Part shown: one piece after another, positions 7,194 through 29,593 of the stretch
Numbering within the stretch: the first letter of the stretch is position 1
Layout: every line of letters starts with the position of its first letter
IMG/VR virus record: IMGVR_UViG_3300021403_000002
Location: 1 to 34,994 of that record
Direction: 5' to 3' (one strand)
DNA length: 34,994 nt
From: a virus
Made by a program: the position numbers and the translations under genes
Notes under the pieces: model-generated
Told to the model about the DNA's origin: nothing
What the model saw: only the letters and a program-made list of their open reading frames with translations
The model's database searches: none

Positions 7194-10082
7194 ATGAGTT
7201 CATTATTTACCGTCAAACCTGGCGGTGGTGGTGGTAGTGGTATCACAACCATAAACGGAAACGTCGGCCATGTTTCTGGTACAACAGTAACATTTACTGG
7301 CGGAACTAGCGGTGCGGTATTTACGGGCGATAATGCTACGACCATGACTGAGTCGTTCAATTTCCTGTCTCTTCCAGATACCACAACCTCATCCGTTGGA
7401 TATATAAGTATCGGCGGAGAGCCATTCATTCATGGATACCCCGGAGTTGCTGATTCTAATACATTTGTAGGTGCATTCTCAGGTAATTTCACCAATACGG
7501 GCTCAGAAAATACTGCCGTTGGCGCAAATTCTCTTGAGTCGGTTACGACTGCCGAATCTACCTGTTCGTTTGGATTTGATAGTTTAAATGTCCTTGAGTC
7601 GGGCAACTATAATACCGCAATCGGTACACAAGCGCTCTTGCAGTTAGTATCGGGAGCTTTTAATACCGCAGTTGGTCCTCAGGCGGGAATAAACCTTGCT
7701 GGTTCAGAATCTAATAATATATATATAGCTTCTCAGGGAGTAGCTGCCGAAAGCAGAACTATGCGACTTGGGGTTGGTAGCGCAGACCTTGACCCAACAA
7801 AGACCTTTATAGCAGGTATCGCGGGAAACTCTCCTGGTGGTGGTGATCAGGTCGTCTATGTAAATACATCGACTGGTCAAATGTCCTCAGCGGCATCAGC
7901 TGGTGGATCGGTGACCATTAATGGTGATGCTGGTACCCCGATATCAGGATCGACCTTAACCTTTACTGGTGGTACAAGCGGAGCTGTATTCACAGGTGAT
8001 GGTGTCACAACCATGACTGAATCCTTCAACTTCTTAGCCCTTCCGGAAACAACCTCATCATCGGTTGGATATGTATCTATCGGCGCTACGCCATTCATGC
8101 ATGCATTTGGTGCCAACACCGATAATAATACATTTTTAGGATTTGGTGCCGGAAACTTTACACTCACAAGCGGGACCGCAACCGACAATACAGGCATAGG
8201 CCATCAAGCGCTCTCGTCATTAACGACTGGCGCTGTTAATACTGCCATAGGGAACGATGCAGGATCATCGATAGATGCAGGAAGTCAAAACGTAGCCGTA
8301 GGCCAGGTAGCTCTTGTCGGCTGTACTTCTGGTAATCAGAATAGCGCCTTCGGAACAAATGCTCTCGACAATGTGATCACTGGTTCTAATAATATCGGCG
8401 TAGGATTCGCCACAGGAAACGCATTCTCTGGTGCCGAGAGTAACAACATTCTCATAGGTTCCGTTGGTGTTTCTGGTGAGAGCAATGCACTGCGCATCGG
8501 AATCCTTAATGATATTAGTGATGTAACTACCGCATTTATAGGTGGTATCGCAGGCAATACACCTGGCGCTGGTGATCAAGTAGTGTATGTAAATACATCT
8601 ACAGGACAAGTTTCAGCGGCCAGCTTCCTAGCACTGCCGGAAACGACTTCATCATCGGTGGGATACATATCTCTGGGTGGCGTTATCTATTTCCATGCCT
8701 TTGGCCAAGATTCAGATGATAACTTATTTGTGGGCAATGGGGCTGGAAACTTTACCCTTGTAAGTGGTACAGCATCTGGAAATACTGGAGTTGGTGCATT
8801 CGCGCTCTCTGGTCTTACAACAGGATTTGCTAATGCTGCTTTCGGTGTCAATGCAGGAGCTGGTATAACTGGCGGCGTTCAGAATGTGGCAGTTGGGAAT
8901 GGCGCGTTAGCCCTTGGAACCTCAGATAATAATACTGCGGTAGGACAGGATTCATTGTCATCAATCACAACTGGCGTTGAGAATACCGCTCTGGGTATAG
9001 TATCTGGTGCTGCTTATTCGAGTTCCGAGTCATTCAATATCTGTATAGGATCTCCCGGTATCAACGGCGAGAGTAATGCATTGCATATTGGGGATCTGAA
9101 TGGACAACCCACCACCGTGGCATATATTTCTGGTATCGCTGGAAATACTCCTGGTGCATCAGATCAGATCGTCTATGTTAATACCTCAACACAACAACTC
9201 TCATCAGCAAGTAGCAGCTCTACCCTTATCACAACCTATAACGTTGTTGGTGGTGTAGATACGACAGCTACTTGGACCAAGAATGCTCGAACTAAAACAG
9301 TCACTGCTATCGCATGGGCCGCTGGTAATGGTGGTGGATCAGGTCGACAAGGATTAACTACAGCATCTTCTGGCGGTGGTGGTGGATCTCCTGGTGCCGC
9401 ATATTATATGACAGCACCAGCATCGTTCTTTGGAGCTACTGAGACAGTTCATATTGGTGCAGGGGCAGCCGGTGGCGTCGCTCAAGCAGGCGCTAATACT
9501 GATGGTAATGCAGGTTCCGTTGGTGGTGCAAGTGGCATCGGAAACATTCTCACTCCTCAGGGTACATCTGGTGGTGGTGGTGGCACCGTAACTGGTGCTG
9601 CAGGTACGTCGGGCCTCAGTCGAAGCAACTATGCCATATCCATAACCTCTGTTGGTGGTGGTCCTGGTGGCAATGGTGCCGGAGCAAATGGCCAGGTTGT
9701 TACTGAGATAGGCGTTGGCGCTACTGGCGGTGGCGGTGGATCTGGTGCTAACTCAGCCTCAGCTCAACAAGCTGGAAATGGCGCAGCAGTTCCCGCTCTT
9801 AATGGAGGGACAGCACTCGTTGCTGCAGCAGCTGGTGGAATATCATCTGGTACCATCAATGGCGCAGCTGGTGGCAACCAATTAACAACCGGTGGCGTAC
9901 TTACTGGCGGAGCTGGTGGAGGCGGCGGCGGTGGTATGGTCGCAGGTACTGCGGGTACTGGTGGCAAGGGTGGATTCCCTGGCGGCGGCGGAGGCGGAGG
10001 AGGAGGTTCTCTCAATGGAACCAATTCTGGTGCAGGCGGCGCTGGTGGAGATGGTCTCGTTATAATCATCGAACAGTTCTAG
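7194..10082 (+). CDS. Giant fibre adhesin: YadA-head-like repeats plus glycine-rich C-terminal domain (962 aa)
   Basis: TAGGAGATTGCT precedes the ATG. After a glycine-rich start, the protein has two copies of a TFTGGTSGAVFTGD leader, and three copies of a module that starts near LPxTTxSSVGY. Each module runs through repeats of the form NTAVGxxSLxxxTTG and ends in AGIAGNxPGxxDQxVYVNTST, a unit of roughly 200-230 residues. The NTAxGxxAL repeats match the left-handed beta-roll of YadA-type trimeric heads. From about residue 685 the sequence becomes a glycine-rich domain (TATWTKNARTKTVTAIAWAA, many GGGG runs, closing GGDGLVIIIEQF), a family I know from phage and bacterial surface proteins. I infer a trimeric receptor-binding fibre. 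The near-identical modules suggest expansion by internal duplication and recombination. Confidence 0.8.
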   Translation: MSSLFTVKPGGGGGSGITTINGNVGHVSGTTVTFTGGTSGAVFTGDNATTMTESFNFLSLPDTTTSSVGYISIGGEPFIHGYPGVADSNTFVGAFSGNFTNTGSENTAVGANSLESVTTAESTCSFGFDSLNVLESGNYNTAIGTQALLQLVSGAFNTAVGPQAGINLAGSESNNIYIASQGVAAESRTMRLGVGSADLDPTKTFIAGIAGNSPGGGDQVVYVNTSTGQMSSAASAGGSVTINGDAGTPISGSTLTFTGGTSGAVFTGDGVTTMTESFNFLALPETTSSSVGYVSIGATPFMHAFGANTDNNTFLGFGAGNFTLTSGTATDNTGIGHQALSSLTTGAVNTAIGNDAGSSIDAGSQNVAVGQVALVGCTSGNQNSAFGTNALDNVITGSNNIGVGFATGNAFSGAESNNILIGSVGVSGESNALRIGILNDISDVTTAFIGGIAGNTPGAGDQVVYVNTSTGQVSAASFLALPETTSSSVGYISLGGVIYFHAFGQDSDDNLFVGNGAGNFTLVSGTASGNTGVGAFALSGLTTGFANAAFGVNAGAGITGGVQNVAVGNGALALGTSDNNTAVGQDSLSSITTGVENTALGIVSGAAYSSSESFNICIGSPGINGESNALHIGDLNGQPTTVAYISGIAGNTPGASDQIVYVNTSTQQLSSASSSSTLITTYNVVGGVDTTATWTKNARTKTVTAIAWAAGNGGGSGRQGLTTASSGGGGGSPGAAYYMTAPASFFGATETVHIGAGAAGGVAQAGANTDGNAGSVGGASGIGNILTPQGTSGGGGGTVTGAAGTSGLSRSNYAISITSVGGGPGGNGAGANGQVVTEIGVGATGGGGGSGANSASAQQAGNGAAVPALNGGTALVAAAAGGISSGTINGAAGGNQLTTGGVLTGGAGGGGGGGMVAGTAGTGGKGGFPGGGGGGGGGSLNGTNSGAGGAGGDGLVIIIEQF

Positions 10083-10090
10083 GAGACTCA

Positions 10091-11845
10091 ATGGATGGTA
10101 ATTTCGGACAAAACTATACAGGGGTGCGGGCAACCACACCCCCCAACTTCATAAAGAAGTTCGATAGAGCGCCTACAGCTAATGATTTCCAGAACTTCAC
10201 CGTTGGTGATGAATGGGAGTGGTCGACTCCACAAAGGGTGTATAAGCTCACCTCGATTATTTATGTTGAAGCGGCACTATCACTCCAGGCAACCTGGAAA
10301 GAGTTCACCTTTGATGGGACTTCTGCTGCCGATGAATTTGTTACCGATGCAGGTACAGCCATACCTGTATTAGGCGTCATTGATATCCTTGGTGGCGCTA
10401 ACATGAATACTGCTGGAGCAGGTAATGTTGTCACCATAAATCTTGATACCTCGATAGCACAGCCAGCAACAAGTGCTGATGGCACCATGGGACTATATAG
10501 TCTTGGTGGTAGTGATTTCATGCATGACTATGGAACATTTAATACATTTATTGGTGGCAATGCTGGAAATAGAACACTTACGCCAGCTGATGCTGTACGT
10601 AACACTGGAGTAGGATTTACTGCATTACATGCACTTACTATTGCTAGTGATAATACTGCAGTGGGATCTGCTTCTTTATCTAGTGCCACAACTGGATCAC
10701 TTAATACTGCAATTGGTGTAGCGTCATTAACTACTACTACAACGGGTTCTTCTAATACTGCGGTTGGGTATCAGTCGCTTACTAATGCAACTACTGGCAA
10801 TAATAATACCGCGGTTGGTAGGGATTCTTTGGCGGCCCTTACAACTGGTGTTTTTAATGTAGCTATTGGAAACTTTTCTTCTAATTTAGTCACTGTGGGA
10901 TCTGATAATACTGCATTAGGATTTGGATCATTAAGTACTATAACTACCGCTAGCTTTAATACAGCAATAGGGCACAACGCGCTCAATCAGGCAAGTGCAG
11001 GAACTAATACCGCAGTTGGATCTGTCGCGCTCGGCCTTCTTACAACTGGCGATAGTAATACGGCGGTAGGGACATCGGCAGGAGGATTTCTTCTGACTGG
11101 TGGATCTAATATCATCGTCGGTGATCTTTCGGGTCAATCATATGTTGGAGCAGAAAGCAGCAATATTATCATTGGAAACAATGGTGTTGTTACAGAAAAT
11201 AACACTATTCGGATAGGAACCCAGGGGGCAGGGGCAGGCCAACAGAATGCTGCCTATATGGCTGGTGTGTATGGATCGGCTGTCGGTGGAACTAATGCAT
11301 TTGTTGTGGTTGATAATACCGGAAAACTTGGTACGACAGGAGTAACTCCTGGGGCCGCCATACCATTCTTTGGATATTCGGCAGCGACTGCGGCGGATGT
11401 GAGTGGAGCGGGCGTATTGTATCAACTCGGATCGGCTTCAGCATTAACTACTCTATATGATTTTAGTGGTGGATTCTTTCCCGGAGATGGATTGGGAACG
11501 CCAGCATCATTTACGGCGCCGGTTACCGGATATTATTCGCTTTCTATGACGGTAAGCACCTCTTGGGCTGACGGGACAAACGCGTCATCATCATTTTATT
11601 ATATAAGTAGCGGCGCGAATACTTGGTATTTATCTCAACAATCTGGTACTCCTGCATCTCCTCCAGGATCGCCTCCTTATCTCGATACTGCTTCTGGATC
11701 AGCCCTTATCAATATGACTATTGGCGATGTCGCTGTATTTAATGTTGTTATAGGTTCAGTTGGGCTAGGCGCGCAGAATATTTCAGTGACAGGCGCAGCT
11801 GCACCTTTATATGTTACATATGTAAGTGGATCTAGAGTCGCATAG
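10091..11845 (+). CDS. Second fibre adhesin: YadA-head-like repeats with C1q-like tip (584 aa)
   Basis: CTAGGAGACTCA precedes the ATG. Residues 1-90 form an N-terminal domain (FQNFTVGDEWEW, VYKLTSI, LQATWKEFTF) that probably attaches to the tail. The module that follows shares the MGLYSLGGSDFMHDYGTF pattern with the giant adhesin, and residues 165-340 consist of about ten consecutive NTAxGxxSLxxxTTG repeats, the YadA-head beta-roll. After a spacer, residues 430-584 look like a C1q/TNF-type jelly roll (FDFSGG-like strand, FTAPVTGYYSLSMTVS, final LYVTYVSGSRV). This would be a trimeric shaft with a trimeric receptor-binding head. It is the last gene of the rightward virion operon. Host range is likely to depend on it. 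Confidence 0.78.
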   Translation: MDGNFGQNYTGVRATTPPNFIKKFDRAPTANDFQNFTVGDEWEWSTPQRVYKLTSIIYVEAALSLQATWKEFTFDGTSAADEFVTDAGTAIPVLGVIDILGGANMNTAGAGNVVTINLDTSIAQPATSADGTMGLYSLGGSDFMHDYGTFNTFIGGNAGNRTLTPADAVRNTGVGFTALHALTIASDNTAVGSASLSSATTGSLNTAIGVASLTTTTTGSSNTAVGYQSLTNATTGNNNTAVGRDSLAALTTGVFNVAIGNFSSNLVTVGSDNTALGFGSLSTITTASFNTAIGHNALNQASAGTNTAVGSVALGLLTTGDSNTAVGTSAGGFLLTGGSNIIVGDLSGQSYVGAESSNIIIGNNGVVTENNTIRIGTQGAGAGQQNAAYMAGVYGSAVGGTNAFVVVDNTGKLGTTGVTPGAAIPFFGYSAATAADVSGAGVLYQLGSASALTTLYDFSGGFFPGDGLGTPASFTAPVTGYYSLSMTVSTSWADGTNASSSFYYISSGANTWYLSQQSGTPASPPGSPPYLDTASGSALINMTIGDVAVFNVVIGSVGLGAQNISVTGAAAPLYVTYVSGSRVA

Positions 11846-20038: not shown

Positions 20039-21433
20039 TTGATACCAACCGTCGTAAAGCTCGATAAATTCCATCCCCGATCGTATCAGATCCCTATGAT
20101 GGATGCCTTGCTCAACAAGGGATACGATCGAGTTATGGCTATCCTTCCCCGCCGAGCTGGCAAAGACCTTACCGCATTCAACATTTGCATTCGGATGCTT
20201 ATCCGCAAGGTTCAGACCATATACTATGTATTTCCCACCTTCAACGATGGCCGCAATATTTTATGGGACGCATTAACGAATGACGGTTTCCGTGTCCTTG
20301 ATTATCTTCCTTCAGAGCTTGTTGAGTCTCGCAATGAACAGATGATGCGCATCAAGCTTAAGAACGGTTCGGTCTTTCAGGTGATGGGATCCAATAAGCC
20401 AGATAAGATGGTGGGAACTAACCCGTCAGGCATCGTATTTTCTGAATATGCTAAGTGCGATGAGCGTGTCTACCAATTCGCTGGTCCTATACTCAATGGT
20501 AATGGTGGCTGGGCGCTATTCATATCAACGCCGCGCGGCAAGAATCATTTCTGGGATTTATGGAACATATCTCAATCATATCCAGATAAGTGGTTTGGGT
20601 ATCGAATGACCATTGAAGAGACGGGTCATATACCAGTCGCTGTGATTCGGGGGGACGTTGAACGGGGAGAGATCTCAGAGGACATGGCCCAGCAGGAATA
20701 CTTCTGCTCATTTGAACTAGGCGTCGAAGGATCTTACTATGCTAAATACATTGATCGTATGCATTTACAGGAGCAGATAGGTAAGGTTCTGTGGGATCCT
20801 AATAATAAGGTCCATACCGCATGGGACATCGGCTATAATGATGCCACCGCTATCATCTTTTTTCAGGTCTCTTCGACTAATAACGTTCATATCATAGATT
20901 ATCATGAGAAATCTAAGGAAGAGGCGTCCTACCATGCAAAAATCGTCCTTGATAAGCCCTATCAATATGGTCTTCATATAGGGCCTCATGATGTATGGGC
21001 ACATAACTCAACTGGTGACTTTCGGTGGAAGAAATATAATGATCTCGGCATAACCATGACTCGCGACCATAATCAAGGCGAGCATCCAGAGACCATTGAT
21101 AGTGGTATTGAGGCAGTTAAAACAGTTCTATCTAAATGTTATATCGATGAAGTTAAGTGCAAGTCACTCATAAAATCACTTGAGAACTATCGTCAAGAAA
21201 AGAATAGTAAGAAAGAAACTTATGGTCGACCTGTGCACGATAAGCACTCTCATGGTGCAGACGCCATGAGGTATCTTGCGGTGGGTATGAAACGCACTGT
21301 TCCGGGCAAATCAGCCGAAGATCTTCGCCAGCTACACGCAGAGGCTCGCTATGGGGCCTCGAATAACAAGCTGCCTCCAATATTCAATTCCAATAACCCC
21401 ATGACGCCTAATCCTTTTTTCCAGCAGCGCTGA
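20039..21433 (+). CDS. terL: Terminase large subunit (464 aa)
   Basis: This is the packaging motor ATPase and nuclease. The N-terminus FHPRSYQIPMMDALL is the adenine-binding region, and MAILPRRAGKDLTAFN is the Walker A motif (RRAGKD). A Walker-B-like strand with acidic end is GIVFSEYAKCDERVYQF, and FISTPRGKNHFWDLW is the coupling motif. The C-terminal RuvC-like nuclease shows HTAWDIGYNDATAIIFFQ with its first acidic residue, and HDKHSHGADAMRYLAVG near the end. The length is typical of the family. The frame begins right after a TAA, so the start is TTG 20039 (with a weak GCGGT upstream) or ATG 20096; the FHPRSYQ motif favours the TTG. The C-terminus overlaps a leftward gene by 26 bases. Confidence 0.93.
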   Translation: MIPTVVKLDKFHPRSYQIPMMDALLNKGYDRVMAILPRRAGKDLTAFNICIRMLIRKVQTIYYVFPTFNDGRNILWDALTNDGFRVLDYLPSELVESRNEQMMRIKLKNGSVFQVMGSNKPDKMVGTNPSGIVFSEYAKCDERVYQFAGPILNGNGGWALFISTPRGKNHFWDLWNISQSYPDKWFGYRMTIEETGHIPVAVIRGDVERGEISEDMAQQEYFCSFELGVEGSYYAKYIDRMHLQEQIGKVLWDPNNKVHTAWDIGYNDATAIIFFQVSSTNNVHIIDYHEKSKEEASYHAKIVLDKPYQYGLHIGPHDVWAHNSTGDFRWKKYNDLGITMTRDHNQGEHPETIDSGIEAVKTVLSKCYIDEVKCKSLIKSLENYRQEKNSKKETYGRPVHDKHSHGADAMRYLAVGMKRTVPGKSAEDLRQLHAEARYGASNNKLPPIFNSNNPMTPNPFFQQR

Positions 21434-22058: not shown

Positions 22059-24122
22059 ATGATACCACCAGTATTTGGACCCCAGTATTACTCTGAAAAC
22101 AACCAAACGATTAAGAAGCGCATTGATGATTTCTATGCGCAAGCGACAACATTGCACAATGGCTTTTGGGGTGAAGCGTTTATAGATACTCAATATGAGG
22201 CCGGCGATCAGGTCCTTAATTCTAACTCTTATGGCGTGCTCCCTGCATGGGGCCGTAAGCAGTTATCATTTAATCATATTAGGCCCACTGTTAATGTCGT
22301 TGATGGTTATCAGCGTCGCAATAGAAAATCTACCATTGTTGTTCCCGTCGAGAACGGTGACTCAGAAACCGCAGATCAGTTCACGAAGATCTTGATGTGG
22401 ATCAACAGAAATGAGGGAGTTCTTGAAACGATCTCCGATTCATTCCATGGATCATTGGTAACGGGTTTATCATTCCTCCATGTATGGTTAGATTATCGCA
22501 CTGACCCTGTTTCGGGGAACATTCGCGTTGACCATCTTCCCTATAACTCATTTATTATGGATCCTTTTTGGAAGAAGGCCGACCTTTCTGACTGTCGCCA
22601 GATTCTTTATAGACAATATAAGACCAAACGCGACCTTATATCCTATTACCCTGACTTTGAAGAAGCCATTGCACAGATTCCTGAGAATGATGGTTCCAAT
22701 ACCCGTGATGGTCGATTCCAATTCACTCCCGAAGCACAGAACTTCAGCTCCAAGGGCCTTCTTGCCGTTGATGAGTTCTACTATCGTGACTATCGAACCC
22801 AACTCATGCTCGTTGACTCCCTGACTGGTGAGACTATGCCATGGATGGGTAAGTCTGATGAAGGTCTGCAGCAGTTCCTGAAGAACAATAAGATGATCAC
22901 TACGATCGAGCAGATCGTTCCCACCGTCAACCTGGCCGTTAAAGTCCAAGACCTTATCCTTTTTGATGGACCACAACCATCGGGCATCGATGATTACCCG
23001 ATGATACCGGTCTTCTGTTACTACAATCCGCAGATGTCAGACATGTCCCTGCGTATACAAGGTATGGTTCGCGGTATGCGCGATGCTCAGTATCTCTATA
23101 ATCGAAGAAAGATTATCGAGCTCGATATTTTTGAATCTCAGCCGAACTCTGGGTTTATCTATAAAGAGGATTCGCTGGTTGACCCTCTTGATGTCTACCA
23201 ACAACAAGGTCAAGGAAAAGGCATTGCATTGAAGAAAGATGCGCAGATGTCCGATGTCCAACAAATCCAGCCTCCTCGCGTTGACGCTTCTATGTTCACT
23301 GCATCACAGATCCTTTCTGAAGAGATGCCGATCATCTCTGGTGTTACCAAAGAGCTTGCTGGTATGTCTGGTGACGCCAAATCTGGCCTTCAAGAGATGT
23401 GGCGCACTGCTGCGGGCAAGACTGGCCTTGAGATCCTATTTGATCACCTTGACCGAGCGCAGAAGCTTCTTGGTAATCGTATGATCTCCATGATTCAAGC
23501 CAACTTTACTCCCGGCAAGGTTCAGAAGATACTCGAGGGACAAAAACCTGCTGATCAGTTCTATTCCAAAGCATTCGGCATTTATGGGTGTGCGGTTGAG
23601 GAAGGTTTTAATACAACCACTCAGAAACAACTTGAGTTTGCGCAACTTATGCAACTTCGAGAGGCAGGCATTCCCATTCCTGATAAAGATATTCTCGAAG
23701 TTGCCACCTTGCAGGGCAAGAAAACTATTATTCAGGATATGGAGCAGGCTCAACAGCAAAATATGCAGCAATCACAGGAAGCTCATCAGCTTGCTATGGC
23801 TGAGATACAAGCCAAAATCAAAGCCTCTGACGCTCTTGCGGTTGCCAACCAAGGCCTCGGCGTTGAGAGATTATCTCGCGTTGAAGAAAATGAAGCATTG
23901 GCTATTGAGCGTAGAGCTGCTGCAGAGAAAGACCATGACATGGCACTTCTTAATCTTGTTAAGGCTATTAAGGAAGTCGATGGCATTGACATTGAGCATG
24001 TCGCAAAACTATTGTCGTTGTCTCAGTTAATGAAGACACAACAACCAGATACCCAGCTGCAACCAGAAGCTCCAAGCGTTCCTGCGAACGAGTTCCAAGG
24101 ACAGCCAATGACGGGTAGTTAG
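22059..24122 (+). CDS. Portal protein, P22/N4-like (687 aa)
   Basis: AAGGA lies six bases before ATG. The protein forms the dodecameric DNA channel at the capsid vertex. Residues 1-110 hold an N-terminal helical region (TLHNGFWGEAFIDTQYEAG; FNHIRPTVNVVDGYQRRNR). The SGLSFL-like part (GSLVTGLSFLHVWLDYRTD) and VDHLPYNSFIMDPFWKKAD are typical of podovirus portals that predict the clip and wing. Residues 330-450 hold RGMRDAQYLYNRRKIIELD and MPIISGVTKELAGMSG. The C-terminal 170 residues are a long Gln/Ala-rich helix (QQNMQQSQEAHQLAMAEIQ), fitting a P22-like barrel. The length is close to P22 gp1 (725 aa). Portal and TerL are separated only by the leftward pair. Confidence 0.9.
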   Translation: MIPPVFGPQYYSENNQTIKKRIDDFYAQATTLHNGFWGEAFIDTQYEAGDQVLNSNSYGVLPAWGRKQLSFNHIRPTVNVVDGYQRRNRKSTIVVPVENGDSETADQFTKILMWINRNEGVLETISDSFHGSLVTGLSFLHVWLDYRTDPVSGNIRVDHLPYNSFIMDPFWKKADLSDCRQILYRQYKTKRDLISYYPDFEEAIAQIPENDGSNTRDGRFQFTPEAQNFSSKGLLAVDEFYYRDYRTQLMLVDSLTGETMPWMGKSDEGLQQFLKNNKMITTIEQIVPTVNLAVKVQDLILFDGPQPSGIDDYPMIPVFCYYNPQMSDMSLRIQGMVRGMRDAQYLYNRRKIIELDIFESQPNSGFIYKEDSLVDPLDVYQQQGQGKGIALKKDAQMSDVQQIQPPRVDASMFTASQILSEEMPIISGVTKELAGMSGDAKSGLQEMWRTAAGKTGLEILFDHLDRAQKLLGNRMISMIQANFTPGKVQKILEGQKPADQFYSKAFGIYGCAVEEGFNTTTQKQLEFAQLMQLREAGIPIPDKDILEVATLQGKKTIIQDMEQAQQQNMQQSQEAHQLAMAEIQAKIKASDALAVANQGLGVERLSRVEENEALAIERRAAAEKDHDMALLNLVKAIKEVDGIDIEHVAKLLSLSQLMKTQQPDTQLQPEAPSVPANEFQGQPMTGS

Positions 24123-24750: not shown

Positions 24751-24816
24751 ATGAAAAAAGCATGTAAATGTTCTAAAAAGTCCTGTAAATGTAAGAAGAT
24801 GAATCATGGCAGCTAA
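24751..24816 (+). CDS. 21-residue Cys/Lys peptide, metallothionein-like
   Basis: An ideal AGGAG with five bases of spacing follows the terminator directly, and the ATG opens 21 codons: four cysteines as two C-x-C pairs four residues apart (CKCSKKSCKCKK) and eight lysines, then MNHGS. The C-x-C spacing is the metallothionein and copper-chelator pattern. Overlap with the next gene by 11 bases supports translation. The size is below every normal gene-calling threshold. It may bind a metal ion, RNA or DNA. Confidence 0.6.
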   Translation: MKKACKCSKKSCKCKKMNHGS

Positions 24817-24988
24817 GAACTGGATAGCTGGTGCCATTAAGAAACCAGGAGCCCTTCGCAAAGAACTTCATGTCAAAAAAGGCAAGAAGATCCCAGTGAA
24901 GAAGCTGGAAGTTGCTGCCAAGAAAAAAGGCACTGAAGGCAAACGCGCTCGACTGGCTATTACTCTGAAAAAGCTTCGTAAGAAATGA
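24806..24988 (+). CDS. Conserved phage basic protein (60 aa)
   Basis: The sequence starts AAKNWIAGAIKKPGALRKE and ends GKRARLAITLKKLRKK. The WIxGAIKxPGAL start and the GKRARLAxTL end are patterns I associate with a widespread family of small basic phage proteins found near portal genes; I do not know its function. It overlaps the 21-residue peptide gene and is two bases from the next ATG of the cluster by its ATGA-type junction. Confidence 0.75.
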   Translation: MAAKNWIAGAIKKPGALRKELHVKKGKKIPVKKLEVAAKKKGTEGKRARLAITLKKLRKK

Positions 24989-25283: not shown

Positions 25284-25805
25284 ATGAAGATTATAGAAGC
25301 ATTAAAGAAGATTAAGGACCTTGCCCGCAAGCAAGATGACATCAAGTCGAAGATAGCAGAGTATTGCTGCGACCTTGATATTGAGACCCCAACCTATCCC
25401 GATCAAAAACGTCAGATATCTGATTGGTTGCAAGCTCATGGTGACATCCTGAAAGAGATGCTACACCTGAAGTTCTCCATCCAGCGAACCAACACCCTGA
25501 CTCCCGTTACCATAACGATCGACGATAGACCGGTAACGAAGAAGATATCTGAGTGGATATTCCGTCGCAAGGAACTAGCAAAGGTTCAAGAGAGCGCATG
25601 GCGTGTCCTCACGACTAAGAACTATCCTGAGGCTGGTTATAAAAATAAACCGACCCCAAACTCTCCCGAGACCATTGTTAAAAGACGACTTTACTTTGAT
25701 CCTGTTGAGCGTGATAAAAAGATAGAACTCTATCGATCAGAGCCTCATATCATTGATAGCACCCTTGAAGTGATTAACGCGACAACCGAGTTAATTGAAT
25801 CATAA
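25284..25805 (+). CDS. DIP1984-like helical protein (173 aa)
   Basis: AAAGG lies six bases before the ATG, and a TATATCGATATA palindrome (25262-25273) lies upstream. The first helix IIEALKKIKDLARKQDDIK, the following long helical hairpin, and the motif SIQRTNTLTPVTI with a later EWIFRRKELAKVQE are reminiscent of the DIP1984/septicolysin-like family (helical with an N-x-T centre). The C-terminal 60 residues (ETIVKRRLYFDPVERDKKI and SEPHIIDSTLEVINATTEL) look unique. It lies alone between a terminator and the non-coding region, in the head-gene block. The function is not known, and the family match is tentative. Confidence 0.6.
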   Translation: MKIIEALKKIKDLARKQDDIKSKIAEYCCDLDIETPTYPDQKRQISDWLQAHGDILKEMLHLKFSIQRTNTLTPVTITIDDRPVTKKISEWIFRRKELAKVQESAWRVLTTKNYPEAGYKNKPTPNSPETIVKRRLYFDPVERDKKIELYRSEPHIIDSTLEVINATTELIES

Positions 25806-25926
25806 GCGAGTTATTTGACTCAATTGGGTCAATTCTTTGAAATATACGACCAACGAACAGACATAAAAATGGAAAAGCTGTTGGGGCGACTATACCCTTA
25901 AGTAGTCATCTCCCGAGCATATTGGG

Positions 25927-25996
25927 AAACATATGGGCAAGTGGGAAGCCGTTGGGTATATGACCCGAAATCACAGGTTCGAATCCTGTTATGTAC
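25927..25996 (+). tRNA. tRNA-like fold with non-canonical anticodon loop
   Basis: From 5' to 3': acceptor AAACATA, U8, D arm GGC/GCC with loop AAGTGGGAA, base 26 G, anticodon arm TTGGG/CCCGA with the seven-base loop TATATGA, a short variable region AATC, T arm ACAGG/CCTGT with the standard loop TTCGAAT, then acceptor TATGTAC. The conserved U8, A14, G15-C48, GG of the D loop, A21 and TTCGA are all present. Position 33 is A rather than U, and the two outermost acceptor pairs (A-C, A-A) fail, and no CCA is encoded. It is probably a degenerate or structural tRNA mimic within the larger RNA rather than a working tRNA. The formal anticodon would be UAU. Confidence 0.5.
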
Positions 25997-26320
25997 GGTC
26001 GGCGGACCTTAAGCGCCAATAATCAAGTGAGCAAGTATCAAGCTTTATAGATAGTAAGTTTCAATTTTCCTAAGTCAGTATGGCTTAAGCCAGCAAGTCA
26101 TCAACCCAGAAACGACTTCTGGGAATGGCCTAAATAAGTTAGTTTGCACAGTTAAGCCCAATTCTTTTTAGGGTTCCTGTTCGGGTGGTCTAAATCTAAT
26201 CCCATTTCATGCTTCATATATGGGATCATTCTAGGGCCAGAGCCATTTCATTTGGCCCTAGATTCTTACAATGCTCGTTTGCGTATGGATATTTACACAT
26301 CCATATTAGCGACACCAACG

Positions 26321-26360
26321 CCTCTCATCTTCCCTATAGGATGGGAGGTATTTCTCTTTT
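26321..26360 (+). terminator. Terminator closing the non-coding region
   Basis: CCTCTCATC (26321-26329) pairs with GATGGGAGG (26340-26348), nine pairs with one G-U, with the loop TTCCCTATAG. TATTTCTCTTTT follows. It would define the 3' end of a non-coding transcript of about 0.5 kb. Confidence 0.6.
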
Positions 26361-26390
26361 CTGGTATTATGGTGCCAGAGGGAGATTCAT

Positions 26391-28587: not shown

Positions 28588-28639
28588 AAATTACTTGCGA
28601 CTCACAATCGCAACACTTTTTCATAAGTCAGGTTATTTC

Positions 28640-29593
28640 ATGGCTGTAACTACTATTAATACGCTGCCTTCACCAGTGCAGCAAGCATTTTGCTATGTTC
28701 TTCTGACCGTTCCAGTTCCAAACTTTATCCATAAAATTCCTGCGATGAAGTCGAGAATGGCTCGGAACTCTGGTTATATTCAGCGTTATCGAAGATACAA
28801 TCCACTCGGATTGGCAATGGTCCCATTGTCTACAAATGGCGTAACTCCACCAGCACAATCACTCACAGCAATCGATATCGATGCTCGAATGAACTTGTAT
28901 GGTACTTATATTTACATCAATGAGCGCGTAACACTTCAGAACAATGATCCGGTCCTCAACGAGGCGGCAGAACGTTTAGGCGTATCTCTCCGTCAAACAG
29001 AAGATCAGTTGATTGCTTCTATGTTAGCGTCAACGGCTTCATTTGCTAACTGCACCGGCGGCGGTAACGGCGATACTCCAACCGAGATTACTCGTTCGGA
29101 TATCACCAACACTTGTTCCACCCTTGCAGGAAACAACGCTAATACAATTACGGAAGGCATTCCTGGACGAGACATGTTCGGTACTGCACCTATTCGTAAC
29201 GCGTATTTTGCATTGGGGCATACAGCATTGCGTTCTGACTTGAACAACGTTCAAGGCTTCACGCAAATGAACAACTATCCAGATCCATTCAAAGCACTTG
29301 ATGCTGAATATGGTTCTGCGGATCAGGCTCGTTTCCTGTTGTCATCGATCGGTTCGTTCACTGCTAATGCATCTAATCTCGGACAGAATGTGTACAACAT
29401 ATTCTTCTGCGGTCTCGAAGCTTATGCAACGATTGACCAAGATGGTGGCTCTGCTGAGTTCTTGTACCTACCTCCACAATTCAGTGGTCCGTTGGCTCAG
29501 AACATCAGCGTAGGTTACAAGTTCTGGACAGTCCCTCGAATCCTTAACGATTTGTGGATCGTCAATCTTCGCGCAACCGTTACAGCAGCTTAA
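28640..29593 (+). CDS. Major capsid protein, N4-gp56-like (317 aa)
   Basis: The frame opens at 28595, but CAGG and nine bases of spacing lead to ATG 28640 (MAVTTINTLPSPVQQ). The middle, DARMNLYGTYIYINERVTL, NNDPVLNEAAERLGVSLRQ and EDQLIASMLASTASF, matches the pattern of the N4-gp56 family of HK97-fold capsid proteins (an xYxxINExVxL, then DPVLxEAxxxLGxxLxxxxD). NAYFALGHTALRSDLNNVQ and IFFCGLEAYATIDQDGGSA, then YKFWTVPRILNDLWIVNLR at the end are also typical. It follows the scaffold and has its own promoter and structured leader. An HK97-like fold with no cleaved prohead domain is expected. Confidence 0.85.
   Translation: MAVTTINTLPSPVQQAFCYVLLTVPVPNFIHKIPAMKSRMARNSGYIQRYRRYNPLGLAMVPLSTNGVTPPAQSLTAIDIDARMNLYGTYIYINERVTLQNNDPVLNEAAERLGVSLRQTEDQLIASMLASTASFANCTGGGNGDTPTEITRSDITNTCSTLAGNNANTITEGIPGRDMFGTAPIRNAYFALGHTALRSDLNNVQGFTQMNNYPDPFKALDAEYGSADQARFLLSSIGSFTANASNLGQNVYNIFFCGLEAYATIDQDGGSAEFLYLPPQFSGPLAQNISVGYKFWTVPRILNDLWIVNLRATVTAA

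Follow-up and report, generated by a model that had tools for sequence, protein, structure and literature searches.

Large structured RNAs of unknown function are few in bacteria and their phages, and each has been a long-standing puzzle. A tRNA-like domain within a longer RNA is familiar from tmRNA. Among phage RNAs, GOLLD and ROOL are encoded near tRNA islands, tRNAs are sometimes found inside the GOLLD linker, and homo-oligomeric RNA nanocages have been described for both (PMC12286853). In this report, we describe a further RNA, about 345 nucleotides (nt) long, in the 34,994-bp virus record IMGVR_UViG_3300021403_000002 of an uncultured phage (the window, by which we mean this whole stretch of DNA). 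The RNA occupies positions 25847-26191 of the + strand, downstream of a gene for a protein of 173 amino acids (aa) at 25284-25805 on the same strand, and, like GOLLD and ROOL, it is phage-encoded near tRNA genes. An earlier note on this DNA had proposed either a distant GOLLD or ROOL or a new class; the outcome is the latter, and sequence comparison supports an RNA class not previously described, although a paper outside the open literature could describe it. Our data establish the conserved RNA, its structure and its linkage to the protein gene.

A conserved RNA and its linkage to a protein gene

The window matches a profile hidden Markov model (HMM) of the RNA at 25849-26193 (E 2e-44, the window itself being among the 17 profile sequences), covariation was analysed on 23 members, and member lengths range from about 250 to 390 nt. 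Homology places the RNA at 25847-26191, so that the boundaries drawn by the earlier note (25806-26362) were wrong; the protein partner had been missed there altogether. All elements lie on the + strand. Covariation defines a closing helix, P1, whose 5' strand (25847-25860) consists of P1a (25847-25852), an unpaired A (25853) and P1b (25854-25860), and whose 3' strand (26177-26191) consists of P1b (26177-26183), GG and P1a (26186-26191), P1a and P1b being separated by a conserved A x GG internal loop. All 13 P1 pairs are altered on both sides across members, and the outermost pair (25847-26191) is non-standard in some of them. P1 is followed by the conserved motif GACATAAAAATGGAAAA at 25860-25876 (family consensus GAGAUAAAAACYGGNAAAA in alignment A5, described below) and by a P2 hairpin, GGGGCGACTATACCC, at 25883-25897, recognized by inspection of the members and with a loop that resembles the ACGAUA of the family. 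Downstream of a tRNA-like domain there is a purine-rich linker (26024-26098) with AAG repeats every 7-8 nt or so, a P3 hairpin, CCCAGAAACGACTTCTGGG, at 26105-26123, which is seen in the fold of the window and varies among members, and a covarying P4 domain at 26123-26176 that comprises P4a (26123-26125/26174-26176), P4 (26129-26134/26167-26172) and, inside these, P4b. Five P4 pairs are altered on both sides, and P4a is nearly invariant. In the linkers of 26 members, AAG spacings of 7 and 8 occur in 59 and 48 pairs against about 6 and 5 expected from shuffles (z 21-25), and harmonics appear at 14-16 and 21-24; the idea that the repeats are Shine-Dalgarno decoys was dropped because those of the window read AAGU rather than AAGG.

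Alignment A5 contains 23 divergent members with a mean column identity of 37%. Across its 27 pairs, pairing holds in 93.9% of the cells; alterations on both sides occur in 18 pairs and 140 cells, against 13.4 pairs and 39.3±5.8 cells in shuffles, none of 500 of which reached either observed value; A5 was aligned by sequence, and the shuffles do not preserve phylogeny. When the 3' partners were moved by one to three columns, pairing reached at most 53%. The size of the effect together with this slide control leaves little doubt, despite the alignment caveats, that the P1 and P4 helices are real. In addition, RNAalifold applied to a separate MAFFT alignment of 17 members recovered P1, most of P4 and the anticodon and T arms of the tRNA-like domain unaided. 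The earlier note had named shared coding in homologues, or a lack of covariation, as findings that would speak against an RNA. The homologues have no frame in common (the longest open reading frame per core is 9-74 aa), and the covariation among the 23 members is overwhelming.

The protein gene followed by the RNA on the same strand forms a pair found again, at differing genome positions, in over 20 contigs of uncultured phages, and in related phages the pair occurs in both orientations relative to the head genes. In L199, one of the further phages reached with a portal alignment, the DNA matches window positions 26011-26185 (65% over 179 bases, E 3e-9), and a product 63% identical to that of the window gene is encoded, upstream of terminase, immediately ahead of an array of 17 tRNAs within which the RNA match falls. 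A protein alignment of the window and L199 yielded 21 viral loci, L199's own contig included, and in most of them the RNA follows the gene. As an independent test of linkage, viral contigs were scanned with the RNA motif alone (AGATAAAAACNGGNAAA), which returned at least 120 stretches, and a profile of 17 RNA cores was then applied to these, with E < 1e-8 defining a full RNA. Among the stretches listed, the protein gene was present at 13 of 13 full RNA loci and at one of the other 107 (Fisher p = 1.6e-16, a value in which six of the 13 contigs were already known and are not independent); the seven new contigs are L261, L275, L279, L285, L300, L315 and L323. The single carrier among the other 107 listed stretches is L333, in which a truncated RNA of about 110 nt (L333:5670-5785, with P1, the AGATAAAAACTGG motif and the AGGCTTCC end) lies upstream, not downstream, of the partner gene. 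With the 17-core profile, 42 loci reach E < 1e-3, a number that includes repeated contigs and partial tRNA matches; the non-redundant set holds 26 members, and the family as a whole is larger.

The tRNA-like module and the partner protein

The tRNA-like domain that the earlier note had recognized is called by ARAGORN at 25927-25997 (+ strand, anticodon UAU), scores 42.1 bits with the Rfam tRNA model against a gathering threshold of 29, and has an equivalent in L199. It departs from a canonical tRNA in its 5-bp acceptor, with pairs 1-72 and 2-71 mismatched, in having A33 instead of U33 and in that CCA is not encoded. The same two acceptor mismatches are present in the L199 domain, and the module is therefore taken to be joined to the RNA via its short acceptor. 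Among the 26 non-redundant members, 18 carry a tRNA-like domain, colinear in 15 and circularly permuted in three, the assignments in several members having been made by eye. In the permuted order, the T-arm and the acceptor 3' strand precede the acceptor 5' strand and the D-arm; the loci concerned are L323 (minus strand, profile match 6819-6501), L245:5537-5888 and L249:2303-2601. The L323 domain runs from T-arm through acceptor hairpin to D-arm, the anticodon stem connects it to the remaining RNA, and the fold of the natural segment is closed and multi-branched (-34 kcal/mol). When this segment was rotated and one of four synthetic anticodon loops was used to close it, ARAGORN called a tRNA gene in four of four cases; for the L245 rotation it did so in two of four. 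Anticodons and module identity vary widely among members, and modules therefore seem to be exchanged. Because three members are permuted, a mature 3' end cannot be the feature that is kept, and we infer that the tRNA shape is what is retained.

The partner protein is assigned to a distant DIP1984/DUF6847 family on the basis of its family alignment (A6; 27 sequences, 25-68% identical to the window protein), of profiles and of an AlphaFold model. The NCBIfam profile DIP1984_fam gives a full-length match to the window protein (E 5e-6, 26.7 bits) and to that of L240 (E 1e-12, 48.3 bits), both under the cut-off of 70, and Pfam DUF6847 matches 20 of the 27 A6 members, the window protein with 14.2 bits, under the cut-off of 27. 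PHROG 1491 matches 17 of the 27, and we regard its name, tail fiber protein, as unreliable. The AlphaFold model has a predicted local distance difference test score (pLDDT) of 91. In its comparison with the PDB, where a weak or missing match excludes nothing, a single entry stood out: 3kdq, from C. diphtheriae, whose function is unknown and which is the best solved fold match (Foldseek E 2.5e-4, probability 1.00). VIA gave 3kdq a Z of 12.8 over 149 residues at a root-mean-square deviation of 7.7 A and all other chains at most 8.3, on a scale where helical proteins reach middling Z easily. Defence-system families showed no match to the protein.

Among cultured phages, matches to the protein profile were found in Acinetobacter phage PhT2 and Cronobacter phage vB_CsaP_009, where the DUF6847-like gene is followed by an unannotated gap of 312 or 384 nt; BLAST searches of cultured phages and plasmids with the protein or the RNA gave no match, and the matches of L199 there were to tRNA only. 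The PhT2 gap (L389:1865-2176; MN864865.1, 134664-134975) leads into a tRNA array and has a long closing helix; ATCGCCATGATCAAAAACTG near its start and TGGTCATGGCG later on pair with each other in the minimum-energy fold. It is possibly a remote member of the RNA class, although the RNA profile falls short of proving this.

A proposed ribonucleoprotein and competing explanations

On balance, we lean towards a phage RNA of a new class that acts in trans as a ribonucleoprotein (RNP) with the DIP1984/DUF6847-like protein encoded directly upstream; that RNA and protein bind each other to form an RNP is, taken by itself, probable. Helix P1 closes the RNA, whose conserved body is formed by the P1/AGAUAAAAACYGG core together with the P4 domain. 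In such a particle, this body would presumably bind the protein, and the single-stranded linker with its AAG repeats could be wrapped around a protein oligomer. The exchangeable tRNA-like module might then be displayed to tRNA-handling enzymes or to the ribosome as a bait or ligand, and the use that we favour would be to occupy a host tRNA-targeting factor during infection, as a decoy against a tRNA-targeting defence. In its complete form, this proposal holds that the approximately 345-nt RNA and an obligate DIP1984-like protein present an interchangeable tRNA-shaped module to tRNA-handling host factors during infection, the module being grafted via its acceptor stem or, when permuted, via its anticodon stem; arguments for and against this complete version are close to balanced. 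The suggestion that tRNA mimicry, rather than a passenger tRNA, may be the working principle is tentative, and our doubts about it somewhat outweigh our confidence.

Several observations weigh against this proposal. Pfam profiles and structure comparison revealed no known RNA-binding fold in the protein, and the bacterial DIP1984 genes examined (three real matches in 349 genomes of the phylum of G002) have no such RNA adjoining. Eight of the 26 members have no recognizable tRNA domain, so the module is not essential, and either the core has its own function or the module is optional. Moreover, the acceptor stem is nearly complete in two or three colinear domains (such as those of L240 and L315), which could be genuine tRNAs.

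The RNA comes immediately after the gene, on the same strand and often only 7-50 nt away, as would be expected of a cis element, in which case it would be a stable, structured 3' untranslated region and would control or protect the upstream protein's mRNA. However, several members have other tRNAs or up to 390 nt between gene and RNA, the distance grows to about 1.4-1.5 kb in L323 and L249, the truncated RNA of L333 is upstream of its gene, and a closed 345-nt fold with a tRNA module exceeds the needs of stability; a cis element is therefore unlikely. If instead the RNA were a leader or spacer that yields ordinary phage tRNAs, with the tRNA as the product, the isolated tRNAs common beside the portal in relatives and the members within tRNA arrays would find a simple explanation, but not the acceptor-end mismatches in the window and L199, the circularly permuted domains, the members without a tRNA or the strong covariation outside it, and we consider passenger tRNAs very unlikely.

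That the L199 RNA sits within a 17-tRNA array also recalls GOLLD and ROOL, and a divergent member of either, a nanocage made of RNA alone with phage tRNAs that happen to lie in its linker, would account for it. Such an origin is decidedly unlikely, given that three members have no Rfam match to either RNA at E values up to 10, that members measure about 250-390 nt whereas many GOLLD RNAs exceed 800 nt, and that the linked protein gene is constant here whereas ROOL is without a known protein partner. Differing insertion points among related phages might further point to a small mobile element in which the RNA of the pair guides or templates its own movement. We give this only a slight chance, since the partner is small, helical and without a match to nuclease, transposase or reverse-transcriptase families, and the neighbours differ between loci, whose insertion ends were not systematically studied.

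The surrounding locus and known RNAs

In the window, the RNA sits between two head genes, with terminase at 20039-21433, a P22-like portal at 22059-24122 and the major head protein at 28595-29593. The earlier note was right that the gap holds no credible gene: an open reading frame check found none between 25806 and 26390. On the + strand, this 585-nt gap folds more stably than its shuffles (z = -6.0; minus strand, z = -2.5), and the excess comes almost wholly from a train of five hairpins at 26199-26385 (+ strand; z = -6.1 for 26180-26390), the most stable part of the gap. The part from 25806 to 26180 is thermodynamically unremarkable (pieces z about -1 to -1.5), and the conserved RNA alone has a modest folding excess (z = -2.0). 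The train lies outside the conserved RNA and has no counterpart in the relatives checked: in L232 only a few bases separate the RNA from the next gene, and in L199 a tRNA is found no more than 13 nt after it. It was therefore ruled out as part of the RNA, and a covariance model of it (R1) was set aside once this had become clear. One of the five hairpins, at 26320-26349 (+ strand), is terminator-like in a terminator scan, and the last extends over the ribosome-binding site of gene 26391. Thus, the terminator-like 3' end reported previously does exist, but the stress laid on it was misplaced, as it is not part of the conserved RNA; the count of seven perfect or near-perfect hairpins was generous, because only two stems in the gap have at least nine uninterrupted pairs. 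The whole window contains 12 such stems against 11-16 in shuffles, that is, no excess, and the two in the gap are the longest.

Portal similarity identified 71 relatives, with the common gene order portal, 24181, 24543, 24806, 24985, 26391, 26959 and major capsid protein (MCP); gene 25284 is absent from all 71, and a single-sequence search of them for an RNA homologue gave nothing significant. Two of these relatives (L033 and L034) have same-position gaps near the portal with high folding scores, which on inspection were judged to be short coding genes. No RNA homologue was returned by scans with the neighbours g26391, MCP and g24806 or with the single g25284 protein. The contig of one portal relative was binned as Methylococcaceae, and isolated tRNA genes are present near the portal at L002:3861-3934, L019:1071-1229, L023:7695-7770 and L069:4337-4408. 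Upstream of terminase in another contig, about 540 nt without open reading frames (L031:197-737, nearly identical to L070:7628-8167) are strongly structured on the + strand (z about -7), with many long hairpins and no Rfam match, possibly another, unrelated phage RNA. Elsewhere in the window, a basic protein of 60 aa is encoded at 24806-24988 and has at least 541 viral-contig relatives, and 7194-11845 contains the genes of two long proteins, of 962 and 584 aa, that carry NTAVG...SL..TTG-type repeats; none of these has a Pfam match.

Novelty was judged on Rfam 15, from which the GOLLD and ROOL profiles were taken, and on a literature search. Neither GOLLD nor ROOL matched in the Rfam search that the earlier note had called for; with relaxed filters and E up to 10, it covered the regions of the window, L199 and L240, and with gathering thresholds 14 protein-family loci, nearly all of which hold the RNA. 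No Rfam family other than tRNA was found at gathering thresholds in the window and the 14 loci, or at E up to 10 in the window, L199 and L240, where the matches were at chance level. The literature search, which left subscription papers and preprints largely outside, found nothing on the RNA or DUF6847 and one incidental mention of DIP1984.

Like tmRNA, the new RNA embeds a tRNA-like domain in a longer RNA; here, however, the domain is a whole cloverleaf, anticodon arm included, and lies in the middle of the RNA. At the gathering threshold, the window and the 14 loci gave no tmRNA match, and a permuted-tmRNA match in L199 (19 bits, far under the 47-bit threshold) falls on a neighbouring tRNA. 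The partner protein resembles DIP1984/DUF6847 and its structure 3kdq in a full-length profile match and in its best fold match, but differs in scores under the curated cut-offs and in that the three bacterial members examined lack an adjoining RNA of this kind. The likeness to GOLLD and ROOL in arrangement is real, whereas membership is not supported. With GOLLD the new RNA shares a location near phage tRNA islands, a conserved 3' part with a less conserved middle and the possibility of tRNAs in the linker (PMC12286853); it differs in having no Rfam sequence or structure match, in being under half the size of GOLLD, and in its constant protein partner and permuted tRNA modules. ROOL is similarly a phage or prophage RNA of unknown function, often near tRNA islands, and is set apart by the same lack of an Rfam match and by having no known protein partner. 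Unlike both, the RNA described here adjoins one small protein with a known fold (3kdq, whose own function is unknown) and bears a tRNA module that is movable and takes two topologies, so its function is directly testable. A first hint at what the DIP1984/DUF6847 family does may also come from the pair, which provides an example of a naturally permuted tRNA fold within a phage RNA.
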